A stretch of DNA of 48,724 nucleotides from Lachnospiraceae bacterium. GTDB taxonomy: Bacteria; Bacillota; Clostridia; Lachnospirales; Lachnospiraceae. Shown here one piece after another: positions 24,055 through 27,906 of the stretch. Position 1 is the stretch's first letter. The number at the start of each line of letters is the position of its first letter. The notes under the pieces were generated by a model. The model was given only the letters and a program-made list of their open reading frames with translations, was not told the origin of the DNA and made no database searches. The stretch lies in contig JAFSGE010000052.1 of NCBI GenBank assembly GCA_017434885.1, positions 1 through 48,724 of the forward strand, in the 5' to 3' direction. A program made the position numbers and the translations under genes.

Positions 24055-24120
24055 ACAATTAACAACCTTTGCAGGAAACGCTTATAGAAATTGTATGTTA
24101 AAAAAATGTAAATATTCCTA

Positions 24121-24149
24121 TTGACAATTAATTAACAAGGTGATATTAT
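24121..24149 (+). promoter_or_regulatory. Sigma-A promoter of the riboswitch transcript
   Basis: TTGACA (24121-24126), 17-base spacer, TATTAT (24144-24149). The start is predicted near 24156, a few bases before the aptamer's P1 stem. Confidence 0.85.
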
Positions 24150-24160
24150 AAATTCATCAA

Positions 24161-24261
24161 ATAAAAGGGAGTAGCTTATATCTACCAAGATATATTCGGA
24201 ATCGTCAAGACGATGGAAGCATCCGTTCCGAATCAGCGATGAACTGTAGCAAGACTTTTAT
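24161..24261 (+). promoter_or_regulatory. yybP-ykoY (Mn2+) riboswitch aptamer
   Basis: P1 is a perfect 7-bp stem, ATAAAAG (24161-24167) with CTTTTAT (24255-24261). It is followed by the conserved loop GGAGTAGC and closed by TAGCAAGA. P3 is TTCGGAA/TTCCGAA, carrying the conserved loop TCGTCAAGAC and an inner GATG-GAAG-CATC hairpin. These three blocks match the arrangement of the Lactococcus yybP-ykoY aptamer, which senses Mn2+. Its 3' strand is shared with the terminator below, so ligand binding (P1 formed) should prevent termination: an ON switch. Confidence 0.95.
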
Positions 24262-24294
24262 TGTAGCAGGTGGCTGCAATAAGGGTCTTTTTTT
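24251..24294 (+). terminator. Riboswitch-controlled terminator
   Basis: AAGACTTTTATTG (24251-24263) pairs with CAATAAGGGTCTT (24276-24288) over 13 bp with two wobbles, then a T run. The 5' arm includes the 3' strand of aptamer stem P1, so the two structures exclude each other. Confidence 0.93.
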
Positions 24295-24394
24295 ACTTCA
24301 CAGGTTTTGTGAAGGGGGATTTGCACAGGATGCATACTGATGCAAAGAAGATGTTTAGAGCAAGTACACCTGTAAAAGGAAAAGGAGGAAAAAT

Positions 24395-25447
24395 ATGTTT
24401 AAGAAAAAAGACAAAAATGTTTATGATCAGCAAAATGAGGAGAACAAAGCGTTACTGGCTAAAGTTGGAACAGGCTTTGGAATAGTAGCGGCGTTAGGCG
24501 TAGTGGCATACTTGCTTTTTGGCAGTGTATACTCGCTGAAAGAAAATGAATATGCGGTAATTACCACATTCGGTGTGCCGCAGATAGTGGAGGAATCAGG
24601 TATCCACTTAAAGATTCCTTATGTGCAGGAAATGCAGAAGGTTCCCAAGACTATTAATGGTTTTCCCATCGGTTATGATGCACAGACAGATGAATCTATT
24701 GCCAAGGAATCCTTTATGATTACCAGAGATTATAACTTTGTAAATGTGGATTTCTACGTGGAATATAGGGTAACTGACCCTGTGAAGTATTTGTATGCAT
24801 CGGAAAGTCCTGTAGCAATTTTGAAGAATTTAACACAAAGCTACATAAGAGATACCATCGGTCTTTATGATGTAGACAGTGTAATTACCACCGGTAAGAG
24901 CGAAATCCAGGCTTCCATCAAAGAGAAGATTATGACCAGATTAGAGGCAGAGGACATCGGTATTCAGCTTGTGAATATTACTATTCAGGATGCAGAGCCG
25001 CCTACAGCAGAAGTCATTGCGGCATTTAAAAATGTAGAAAATGCAAAACAAGGAAAAGAAACTTCTATTAACAAAGCAAACCAGAAACGTAATGAGGATA
25101 TTCCCGCAGCAAGAGCTTCGGCTGATGAAACCTTAAAGACTGCACAGGCGACGGCAGAAGAGAGAATTAACGAAGCGGAAGGCCAGGTTGCCAGATTAAA
25201 CGAGCTTTATGCAGAATATCAGAAATATCCGTTAATCACTAAGCAGAGAATGTTCTATGAAACTATGGAAGAGATTCTGCCCGATATGAAGATTATTATT
25301 GAAAACAGTGACGGCACTACCCAGACCATGTTACCGTTGGAATCCTTTGTAGACCTTAGCGGTTCTTCCGTGGGAACAGCAGGAAGTACAACTACAGCGG
25401 CAAGTGCTGTTTCCGAAGGGGCTTCAGAAGCAAGTGCCGCAGAGTAA
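24395..25447 (+). CDS. hflK: HflK-like SPFH/band-7 protein (FtsH modulator)
   Basis: 350 residues. One membrane span (about 24-48), the SPFH domain (about 50-210, starting SLKENEYAVITTFGVPQIV), a helical region rich in Ala/Glu (about 210-290) and a Ser/Ala/Thr-rich tail. With HflC it forms a large cage around the membrane protease FtsH. AGGAGG lies six bases before the ATG. A Mn2+ riboswitch and about 100 untranslated bases precede it. hflC follows 93 bases later, in the same transcript as far as can be seen. Confidence 0.93.
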   Translation: MFKKKDKNVYDQQNEENKALLAKVGTGFGIVAALGVVAYLLFGSVYSLKENEYAVITTFGVPQIVEESGIHLKIPYVQEMQKVPKTINGFPIGYDAQTDESIAKESFMITRDYNFVNVDFYVEYRVTDPVKYLYASESPVAILKNLTQSYIRDTIGLYDVDSVITTGKSEIQASIKEKIMTRLEAEDIGIQLVNITIQDAEPPTAEVIAAFKNVENAKQGKETSINKANQKRNEDIPAARASADETLKTAQATAEERINEAEGQVARLNELYAEYQKYPLITKQRMFYETMEEILPDMKIIIENSDGTTQTMLPLESFVDLSGSSVGTAGSTTTAASAVSEGASEASAAE

Positions 25448-25540
25448 AGCGGATAGCAGGTATCGTTTGTAAAAGGGAATGTGCAGTTGCAGAAACTAAG
25501 GAATGCAACATGACATATTGGAAAGATAAGGAGAAAAAAT

Positions 25541-26404
25541 ATGAAGAAGAGTAAATGGTTTATATTTCTCGTTGTGATAATCGGTTTATGGGTGGTAGCG
25601 GAGTCAGCTATGGTAGTAACTTATCCCAATGAGTTTACGGTAATCAAACAATTTGGTAAAATTGTAGATATCAGGGAAGAAGCAGGACTTAGCTTCAAGA
25701 TTCCTGTGATTCAGACAGTAGAGAAAATTGAAAATGAAGTACTTTTATATGACCTTGCGGTAAGTGATGTTATGACAAAGGACAAAAAGTCCATGATAGC
25801 AGACTGCTTTGCACTTTGGAGAATTGAGGACCCTCAGAAGTATACAGAGACATTAAGTGCGCAGAAAAGCAATGCGGAGTTCCGTATTGATACCATTGTA
25901 TACAACAGTCTGAAAAACGTAATCAGTAGTCTCAGTCAGGAAGAGGTTATCAGCGGACGTGACGGAGAACTGACGGCGGCTATTATGGCGAATATCGGTG
26001 ATACTCTTTCCCAGTACGGAATAGAGCTTCTTGCAGTGGAAACCAAATCACTTGATTTGCCGGATGAAAATAAGGCGGCTGTATATGAGCGAATGATTTC
26101 CGAGAGAAATAATATTGCGGCAACCTATAAGGCAGAAGGTGAAGAAGAAGCAAAGCAGATTTCCAACAATACCCAGGCAGAGATTATCGTTATGCAGTCT
26201 GAGGCAGATGCCCAGGCAGCAGAGATTATTGCAAAGGGTGAAGCTGAATACATGAGAATTTTAAGCGAAGCATACAATGATCCGGAAAAAGCAGATTTCT
26301 ATATTTTCCTGCGTTCACTGGATGCTGCCAAGGTTACCATGTCAGGTGAGAATAAGACATTGATTATTGATGAGACATCGCCTATAGCACAGATTTTCTA
26401 TTAA
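25541..26404 (+). CDS. hflC: HflC-like SPFH/band-7 protein
   Basis: 287 residues. The N-terminal membrane segment (about 5-25) is followed by the SPFH domain (YPNEFTVIKQFGKIVDIREEAGLSF) and the Ala/Glu-rich helix AQAAEIIAKGEAEYMRIL. The ending, SPIAQIF, is a common HflC tail. It is the partner of HflK. AAGGAGA precedes the ATG. It follows hflK and is followed, 27 bases on, by an S1-domain gene. Confidence 0.94.
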   Translation: MKKSKWFIFLVVIIGLWVVAESAMVVTYPNEFTVIKQFGKIVDIREEAGLSFKIPVIQTVEKIENEVLLYDLAVSDVMTKDKKSMIADCFALWRIEDPQKYTETLSAQKSNAEFRIDTIVYNSLKNVISSLSQEEVISGRDGELTAAIMANIGDTLSQYGIELLAVETKSLDLPDENKAAVYERMISERNNIAATYKAEGEEEAKQISNNTQAEIIVMQSEADAQAAEIIAKGEAEYMRILSEAYNDPEKADFYIFLRSLDAAKVTMSGENKTLIIDETSPIAQIFY

Positions 26405-26431
26405 GATTAAAAAGTATCGGAGGGCGTTACA

Positions 26432-27337
26432 ATGGAAGAAACCATGAAAGATTATGAACGTGAACTGGAGGCATCTTTCCGTAAAATAAGCGAAGGGGAC
26501 GTGATTTCCGGAACAGTTATTGATGTGAACGAAGAGGAAGTTACCTTAGATTTGAAATATTATACACAGGGCATTATTAAGGCCCAGGATATGAGTGCAG
26601 ACCCCGGATTTTCCGTTTTAGAAGAGGTGCATGAAGGGGATGTAATTGAGGCAACTGTGGTAAAAATGGATGACGGACAGGGAAACATTCTTCTATCTAA
26701 AAAGGAAGCAAATGCCGTGCTTTCCTGGGATGTGCTTGAAGGCTATTTGCAGGAGAAAAAGGATATTACCGTAAAGGTAAGCGAGGCAGTAAATGCCGGA
26801 GTAGTAGCATATGTAGAGGGAATCCGGGGATTTATCCCCGCTTCCCAGCTGGATATTTCCTATGTGGAGGATGTGATTCCTTATGTGGGCAAAAAATTGA
26901 CTGTCAGAGTCACAACAGTTGATAAAGCCAAAGAAAAGCTGATTTTATCCGCAAAAGAAGTGTTAAAGGAGCAGGAGAAGGAAGCTCATGACCATAAGGT
27001 GGCAATGATTGTGCCGGGAACGATATTAGAAGGAACCGTGGAAAGCTTACAAACTTATGGCGCTTTCGTTGATTTAAAAGACGGACTTAGCGGATTGGTG
27101 CATATTTCGCAGATTTGTCAAAAGAGAATCAAAAAACCTTCCGAAGTGCTGAAAGTGGGAGACAAAGTAAAGGTAAAAGTGTTAAATACCAATGACGGTA
27201 AGATTTCCCTGAGCATTAAGGCTGTTGAAGAGGAACAGGAGGCGCAGGAAAGAGAAGATTTTGACACCGCGCAGTTTTCTTCTGATGAGAGCGTAGGTAC
27301 CAGCCTCGGTGATTTGTTTAAGAATCTGGGATTCTAG
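26432..27337 (+). CDS. S1 RNA-binding domain protein (ribosomal protein S1-like)
   Basis: 301 residues with three S1 OB-fold domains at about 20-92, 105-176 and 192-262. Key strings are GDVISGTVIDVNEEEVTLDL, VEGIRGFIPASQL and GTVESLQTYGAFVDLKDGL. The last is the classic S1 form and the most RNA-binding-competent. It is shorter than Gram-negative S1 (six domains) and resembles the short Firmicute RpsA-like/YpfD proteins. GGAGGG lies eight bases before the ATG. It lies 27 bases after hflC and so is likely under the Mn2+ riboswitch too. Confidence 0.9.
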   Translation: MEETMKDYERELEASFRKISEGDVISGTVIDVNEEEVTLDLKYYTQGIIKAQDMSADPGFSVLEEVHEGDVIEATVVKMDDGQGNILLSKKEANAVLSWDVLEGYLQEKKDITVKVSEAVNAGVVAYVEGIRGFIPASQLDISYVEDVIPYVGKKLTVRVTTVDKAKEKLILSAKEVLKEQEKEAHDHKVAMIVPGTILEGTVESLQTYGAFVDLKDGLSGLVHISQICQKRIKKPSEVLKVGDKVKVKVLNTNDGKISLSIKAVEEEQEAQEREDFDTAQFSSDESVGTSLGDLFKNLGF

Positions 27338-27348
27338 GAGGAAGAAAA

Positions 27349-27906
27349 ATGGGACTGGTAATAGGTCTTTTGTGGGGAATCTGTGCAGCGCTATGCATTT
27401 GGAAGGCAGATAAAAAATACAGTACAGATAAGAAAAAGGCTACTGTACTGATAGTGTTCTTTAGTGTGTTTTCCGTCTGCGGAATTGCAGGACATTTTAC
27501 AGGTAGTGAAGCATTGGTGATGGCATCTGTTATGCTTTCCTCCTCCATTCTCTGCATGGGATTATTGGTTTATGCGTGGTATCAGGTATTAGGTTGTAAG
27601 ACGTCTGTACCGGCAGTTTATCTGCGTTACAATACCTATAGTGGCGGTAAGGGTACACGCAGCTATGCACCGGTTTTCAGGTACCGTTACATGGGACAGG
27701 AGTATGAGCGCCAGACCTATGAATCGTATTCCTTAAGGAAGATAAACAAATTGTTTCGGCCGGGAGAGGAATACCGGATTTTTATTAATGAAGAAAGTCC
27801 GGAGAATTGTGTCAGCAAAAGAAAAGTATCTTTCAGTTATTATATTATATTTTGTTTGGGTGTAGTTTTTTTGCTGATGTATGTTATAATGATATTTGAT
27901 ATATAG
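27349..27906 (+). CDS. DUF3592-like membrane protein
   Basis: 185 residues. Two or three N-terminal hydrophobic segments (about 1-80), a soluble beta-rich middle domain (APVFRYRYMGQEYERQTYES, FRPGEEYRIFINEESPE) and a C-terminal membrane segment fit the DUF3592 pattern. The function of that family is unknown. AGGAGGAAG overlaps the end of the S1 gene, so the two are probably translated together. A hairpin follows 17 bases after the stop. Confidence 0.7.
   Translation: MGLVIGLLWGICAALCIWKADKKYSTDKKKATVLIVFFSVFSVCGIAGHFTGSEALVMASVMLSSSILCMGLLVYAWYQVLGCKTSVPAVYLRYNTYSGGKGTRSYAPVFRYRYMGQEYERQTYESYSLRKINKLFRPGEEYRIFINEESPENCVSKRKVSFSYYIIFCLGVVFLLMYVIMIFDI

Follow-up and report, generated by a model that had tools for sequence, protein, structure and literature searches.

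What is a leader that resembles a manganese riboswitch doing in front of hflK and hflC, when the target of the yybP-ykoY class is usually an ion transporter? The question is raised by a stretch of 48,724 nucleotides (here called the window) from a Lachnospiraceae bacterium, positions 1 to 48,724 of contig JAFSGE010000052.1 in assembly GCA_017434885.1. An initial annotation, made from the sequence letters, had placed there a consensus promoter, a yybP-ykoY aptamer and a mutually exclusive terminator, all before hflK, hflC and genes for an S1 protein and a DUF3592 protein. Our answer is that this leader acts as a metal riboswitch of the yybP-ykoY class: through antitermination it turns expression on in the presence of metal, most likely Mn2+, so raising HflKC; we give this reading a probability of about 0.72. 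Sequence comparison confirms that the leader at 24158-24297 is real, with its promoter, its aptamer and its terminator, which has one strand in common with helix P1, directly 5' of hflK-hflC. It is composed as follows.

24121..24149, + strand: sigma-70-type promoter, TTGACA-17-TATTAT, with TG preceding the -10 element
24158..24264, + strand: yybP-ykoY-class aptamer, a predicted four-way junction of P1 to P4 (63.6 bits with model R2, described below; RNAalifold; covariation)
24160..24167, + strand: 5' strand of the switch helix P1, pairing with 24255-24262 through 8 Watson-Crick pairs
24167..24175, + strand: L1 segment GGGAGTAGC (sequence and alignment)
24177..24194, + strand: P2 hairpin (covariation and folding)
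24195..24232, + strand: P3 with L3 and P3.2 (covariation and folding)
24203..24213, + strand: L3 segment CGTCAAGACGA (alignment), in which A24207 is the counterpart of the invariant Mn-contacting adenosine
24233..24246, + strand: P4 hairpin, CAG with CTG (RNAalifold and covariation)
24248..24254, + strand: 3' side of P1.2 and L1, AGCAAGA (alignment)
24255..24262, + strand: 3' strand of P1, CTTTTATT, common to P1 and the terminator (folding)
24251..24297, + strand: intrinsic terminator, stem 24251-24267 with 24273-24289 (17 pairs), then a T run

The aptamer had been described as having a perfect P1, conserved blocks and a P3 loop, and it does: P1 closes through its eight pairs, and the motifs GGGAGTAGC, CGTCAAGACGA and GTAGCAAGAC are all found in the leader. 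As a single sequence, the aptamer alone folds no better than its shuffles (z -0.86, with 34 of 200 as good), and the leader that does fold better, by 4.2 standard deviations (z -4.2, none of 200 shuffles equal), includes the terminator, so that only comparative evidence carries weight. That evidence is ample. RNAalifold, given 24 hflK leaders and supplied with no structure, returned P1, P1.2, P2, P3 with P3.2, and P4; 99.1% of the cells in these leaders are paired, as against 33-43% when the partners are slid, and seven pairs have changed on both sides. Across 94 relatives, in an alignment fitted to the covariance model itself, 24 of the 29 base pairs have been altered in both partners (422 cells versus 115 in shuffles), the helices are paired in 96.9% of cells, and every locus carries the L1 core, either GGGAGTA or GAGAGTA. 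A24207 aligns with A41 of the Lactococcus lactis aptamer and A48 of that of Xanthomonas oryzae, and an A follows GUC in all 24 leaders; this invariant adenosine of L3 gives Mn2+ its N7 (PMC6754395).

The claim of a mutually exclusive terminator is likewise sustained, for positions 24255-24262 belong both to P1 and to the terminator, whose 5' arm includes the 3' strand of P1. The terminator stem is present in all 24 leaders, at -17.2 to -24.1 kcal/mol. When folding follows the growing transcript, the best structure for ends at 24264 and 24267 is a four-way junction in which P1 is closed, and by 24285 the shared strand has been taken by the terminator. With tertiary docking left out of the energies, the forced terminator comes to -39.9 kcal/mol versus -27.7 for forced P1. 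Because P1 is thus 12 kcal/mol worse, the default would be termination, and a ligand would have to hold P1 together during transcription.

Rfam's model of the class, RF00080, serves poorly in these bacteria. Among 60 relatives, it found none above the cut-off and four with a weak match, and in 36 genomes searched with both models it matched three (at E<=0.001) and our model R1 matched 20, under different filters. The L. lactis control genome had no match, though the L. lactis aptamer has been crystallised (PMC6754395), but the control strain may not hold the element. Since RF00080 is insensitive here, two models were built: R1 from 24 hflK leaders alone, and R2 from 40 leaders, out of 53, of P-type ATPase or Na/Ca-exchanger genes, including L003 and a second copy from the window's own genome (L065) and no leader of an SPFH gene (HflK-like or flotillin-like). 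The two are not wholly independent, because R2 was made from matches to R1.

R2 has a sole match in the 48.7 kb of the window, at 24158-24264 (63.6 bits, E 1.3e-13), and recovers all 24 of the genus hflK leaders at 41-64 bits. In the other direction, R1 recovers the leader of Escherichia coli mntP (30.5 bits, E 4.9e-6, the sole match in 9.5 kb) and all four of the weak RF00080 relatives (L001-L004), two of which precede GDT1-family genes. The leader also carries the L1 GGGAGUAG and 3' (A/G)AGAC segments of the class. It is this cross-recognition, together with the class letters in L1, L3 and the 3' segment, that supports placing the leader RNA in the yybP-ykoY class, as had been proposed. The class (RF00080, with the yybP aptamer of L. 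lactis and the yebN aptamer of X. oryzae) has the same four-way junction, the same L1 GGGAGUAG, the invariant adenosine of L3, the 3' segment AGCAAGAC and the same competition between P1 and a terminator.

The placement before hflK is not confined to one contig. The RNA precedes hflK in 24 of 30 near HflK loci (29 in the window's genus, its own included, and one elsewhere in the family). Among the six others, the contigs of L012 and L027 end about 215 and about 172 bases before hflK, and L017, L033 and L034 have no RNA before hflK. The genome of L012 has a strong copy on another contig (G015:C42), which may be its separated leader. In the sixth, L021, what stands before hflK is the 3' part alone, with TGTAGCAAGACTTTTAT and the terminator, next to upstream sequence that is unrelated; the junction may come either from recombination or from a join made in assembly. 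Of 22 genomes of the genus, own genome included, 15 have a strong HflK, and 13 of those carry a copy scoring above 100 bits; none of the other seven does.

In the family as a whole, HflK (at E<=1e-40) is found in 128 of 397 genomes, and R1 finds the RNA upstream of hflK in 16 of the 128 HflK loci searched; by group codes, the 16 represent 13 genera. The upstream stretches searched comprise sets of 98 and 30; a second HflK fragment in G336 was excluded, and contig ends shortened five of the 98 (L185, L210, L215, L219 and L229). Of 80 named loci, many of which share a genome with others, 26 have an R2 match, among them loci of Parablautia muri, P. intestinalis and Lachnospiraceae bacterium 10-1. 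Behind the RNA the gene pair is constant: hflC follows hflK in all 20 RNA-bearing loci checked, which bears out hflKC as the target. In a quick tree of 86 HflK proteins, with five duplicate loci omitted, the RNA label is scattered (38 with, 45 without, and L012, L021 and L027 left unlabelled), calling for 13 changes, at least eight of them forced by starred branches, with gains and losses indistinguishable. Class, fold, promoter, overlapping terminator and recurrent hflKC target can thus be read from sequence.

From these elements a mechanism may be proposed. Transcription would start at about 24156-24158, as judged from the -10 element, at the 5' strand of P1. Once the aptamer has been transcribed, metal would dock L1 on L3 and keep P1 closed, leaving strand 24255-24262 unavailable to the terminator, and hflK and hflC (here perhaps with the S1 and DUF3592 genes) would be transcribed. 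With no metal, the more stable terminator would capture 24255-24262, and transcription would stop. High metal would then mean more HflKC. The L. lactis switch is reported to work in this manner, Mn2+ stabilising P1.1 and blocking the terminator (PMC11087558).

Several observations weigh against this account. RF00080 does not match the leader either at its gathering threshold (45 bits) or at E<=10 on 321 bases, a difference from the class that, taken alone, the initial annotation would have accepted as refutation. We read it as low sensitivity and not as absence of the RNA, because the model is weak in the relatives as well and R2 matches the leader. Neither R1 nor R2 matches the leader of E. 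coli alx, and R2 does not match that of mntP. Freely folded, the growing transcript has P1 already open from 24270. Upstream of 112 of the 128 family hflK loci, R1 has no match within the sequence searched, which spans at least about 1 kb except in five shorter stretches. No SPFH gene is found among the best 30 class-wide R2 loci; these were picked by their score to a transporter model, so an SPFH link may still exist beyond the family. A literature search on hflk, manganese and ftsh brought up, in the titles and opening parts of abstracts seen, nothing on HflKC under Mn. Lastly, L3 of the window reads GUCA-AG-ACG, with AG after the invariant A and U at neither the first nor the second place. 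The crystallised L3 subtypes have U at the first place (X. oryzae) or at the second (L. lactis), and the window leader fits neither; nor does any of the 24 genus hflK leaders have U at either place.

This last point bears on the metal, and to weigh it one must know what else the riboswitch controls. R1 matches at least 135 of the 397 family genomes; genome counts of this kind, from genome-wide model searches, are lower bounds (a copy at G014:C277, 52.3 bits, is not among the matches listed). From these we took 90 of the first 91 places among the matches listed (G443:C83 omitted) and added the four RF00080 relatives to make 94 loci, picking downstream open reading frames by a simple script and checking family names on one or a few members of each cluster. 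The first reading frame encodes a P-type ATPase at 47 loci, an SPFH protein at 15 (11 HflK-like, all of them also in the list of 128, and 4 flotillin-like), a Na/Ca exchanger at six and a YccF protein at six; the remainder comprises five of the OAD_beta family, three that we take to be CNNM-like, two GDT1, two small proteins and eight singles. The survey of downstream genes that had been proposed thus shows hflK to be a recurrent neighbour in the family, with the caution that ranking by similarity to hflK leaders biases the SPFH share of the list upward. In genome G270 there are four copies, which precede a P-type ATPase, a flotillin, an hflK and a YccF gene. The best 30 class-wide R2 loci include the exchanger copy of the window's own genome; 13 of the 30 precede Na/Ca exchangers, eight OAD_beta and seven P-type ATPases; one has a reading frame outside the earlier clusters, and one has none in the short stretch behind it.

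Some of these copies deserve mention in their own right. The second copy in the window's genome (L065, G000:C7:5686-5787) precedes a Na/Ca-exchanger-family gene, has AUACG in L3 and seems, by eye, to be followed by a terminator-like stem. The OAD_beta clients (sodium-pump decarboxylase beta subunit family) are L004, for which the family match was tested, L040, L043, L086 and L119, besides the eight class-wide loci, and they are surprising for a Mn switch. The YccF clients are L078, L093, L105, L110, L112 and L114, and four of their six copies have a short L3 (GUCACCCG twice, GUCAGCCG and GUCACACG) like that of the HflK copies L103 and L120. At L387 (G411:C2:3284070) the copy precedes a putative potassium transporter gene, presumably of the Kup type to go by its N-terminus. 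Locus L389 has two same-strand R2 matches separated by about 1.1 kb, which could mean that the arrangement is repeated or that two adjacent genes are regulated.

Mn2+ is the most likely ligand, judging from the class of riboswitch; this, like the direction of the switch in the cell and its purpose, we infer. The aptamers linked to SPFH genes could instead be a variant with the same fold and switch that, through its different L3, senses Ca2+, Zn2+ or Fe2+, or Mn2+ at another threshold. The letters of L3, taken by pattern (a stricter pattern failed on five of the 94 copies), do differ by client: among the 53 ATPase and exchanger copies, 44 have U at the second place, versus 2 of 15 SPFH-linked ones (Fisher 1.2e-6, kinship ignored), and 47 have it at either of the first two places, versus 4 of 15. 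Add to this that no genus hflK leader has the second-place U and that the exchanger copy in the same genome, with AUACG, is unlike the hflK leader. A review from the Breaker group deems yybP variants of altered specificity likely (PMC7266159), and for the Streptococcus pneumoniae mgtA aptamer tighter binding of Ca2+ than of Mn2+ has been reported (PMC9495176). However, mgtA transcription is activated more by Mn2+ than by Ca2+ (PMC9495176), and inner-sphere contacts are made, in the two crystal structures alike, by phosphates and the invariant A, while the folding of L3 is called idiosyncratic (PMC6754395). Moreover, GGACG occurs also in 3 of the 47 P-type ATPase copies, and 4 of the 15 SPFH copies keep U at the first or second place. 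All told, a changed ligand strikes us as unlikely, though the most serious of the alternatives. The same tentative standing belongs to its wider form, that the SPFH-linked aptamers are a variant branch whose changed L3 confers another metal preference or set point, switching on a group of scaffolds and other proteins of the membrane, namely HflKC, flotillin and YccF, beside the metal exporters.

Two other explanations would take the locus further from a metal-controlled HflKC, and for these the surroundings of the leader matter. The intergenic region, 24055-24394, is flanked by a divergent gene for an M23 peptidase and by hflK, and its plus-strand features beyond the terminator are these.

24383..24388, + strand: ribosome-binding site AGGAGG before hflK (sequence)
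24395..25447, + strand: hflK, TIGR01933, 212.2 bits versus the NCBIfam equivalog cut-off of 159.4
25541..26404, + strand: hflC, TIGR01932, 151.7 bits versus the NCBIfam equivalog cut-off of 134.4
26432..27337, + strand: gene for a protein with three S1 domains (domain match), 27 bases behind hflC
27349..27906, + strand: gene for a DUF3592 membrane protein (domain match), not a conserved partner

The gene order is therefore the one described at the outset. So is the consensus promoter, TTGACA-17-TATTAT, which has 11 of 12 consensus matches and ranks first among the ten promoter-like sites of the region, a count not above that of shuffled sequence; from the terminator to hflK, the scan listed no promoter-like site on the plus strand. 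The -35 element is TTGACA in 23 of 24 hflK leaders, with TTGAAA in L022. Within the promoter the spacer sequence AATTAAC is kept in all 24 genus leaders, often with AATATG next, which exceeds what a bare promoter needs, and a regulator may bind there. It is not seen in the 60 bases 5' of the aptamer in the four copies of G270 or in the exchanger copy of the window's genome; L093 has a near form, AATTACC.

A protein acting at that spacer would suit the notion that the leader is not a metal riboswitch but a conserved structured attenuator, responding to a bound protein or some other signal, whose likeness to yybP-ykoY is due to chance, and the silence of RF00080 would suit it too. Chance, however, would hardly lead R1 and R2 to recognise hflK and transporter leaders across one another, and R1 the mntP leader as well, and it sits badly with an L1 core found in 94 of 94 loci and with helices so consistently paired; we regard the notion as very improbable. 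More improbable still is that the real client of the switch is the S1 or the DUF3592 protein, with HflKC carried along. The S1 gene lies only 27 bases behind hflC and is probably co-transcribed with hflKC in the window. But S1, DUF3592 and HAD genes follow hflC in just one of the 20 RNA-bearing loci, that of the nearest relative (L266), and hflC is there in all 20. On this gene order we reject S1 as a co-target, and its place in the regulated unit, which the initial annotation had thought possible, is not conserved.

If, then, the leader is a metal-ON riboswitch for HflKC, what might it accomplish? More HflKC under metal excess would likely adjust FtsH-dependent quality control, or organise the membrane around metal transporters or exporters and secretion machinery. 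HflK is described in its NCBI model as a modulator of FtsH. Two FtsH loci and one MgtE are present in the genome from which the window comes. In Bacillus subtilis, YqgP and FtsH degrade MgtE when Mn is high and Mg low (PMC7231995), a membrane quality control centred on FtsH that likewise answers to high Mn2+. It differs in that the sensor is a protein domain, and the main text of that paper does not mention hflk. In the same organism, the TerC proteins MeeF and MeeY co-purify with FtsH and with the flotillins FloT and FloA; FtsH is essential when MeeF and MeeY are missing, and a Mn riboswitch controls meeY (PMC10550928). The earlier suggestion that the switch tunes FtsH activity therefore gains from literature tying FtsH and flotillins to Mn handling, and finds none there for HflKC itself.

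The RNA class is known. What appears new, as far as our searches show, is the hflKC target, the wider link to SPFH and YccF in the family, and the L3 variant. Searches joining yybP-ykoY with hflK or with Lachnospiraceae found no report, although the founding gene lists of Mn riboswitches (Dambach 2015, Price 2015) may already name band-7 proteins, and no hflK riboswitch is described in the texts seen, in part, for riboswitch and hflK. Among known members, the S. pneumoniae mgtA riboswitch belongs to the same class but serves a Mn2+/Ca2+ ATPase and not hflKC (PMC9495176, PMC10550928); P-type ATPases are also the commonest client among our 94 loci. The E. coli mntP leader, for all its likeness to the hflK leaders under R1, is a translational riboswitch, studied with Rho (PMC11647493), and its client is a Mn exporter.

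These results suggest that RF00080 undercounts the class in these bacteria, and surveys based on it may miss members and targets. Were the SPFH-linked aptamers indeed a variant branch, SPFH cages would belong to the metal-stress response. The link to hflKC and flotillins fits the reports from B. subtilis of FtsH and flotillins meeting Mn handling (PMC7231995, PMC10550928). A metal riboswitch that recurs before hflKC, and also before flotillin genes, would provide a direct and testable input signal for them, and its placement before hflKC would connect the metal balance of gut bacteria with a complex that serves quality control in the membrane.

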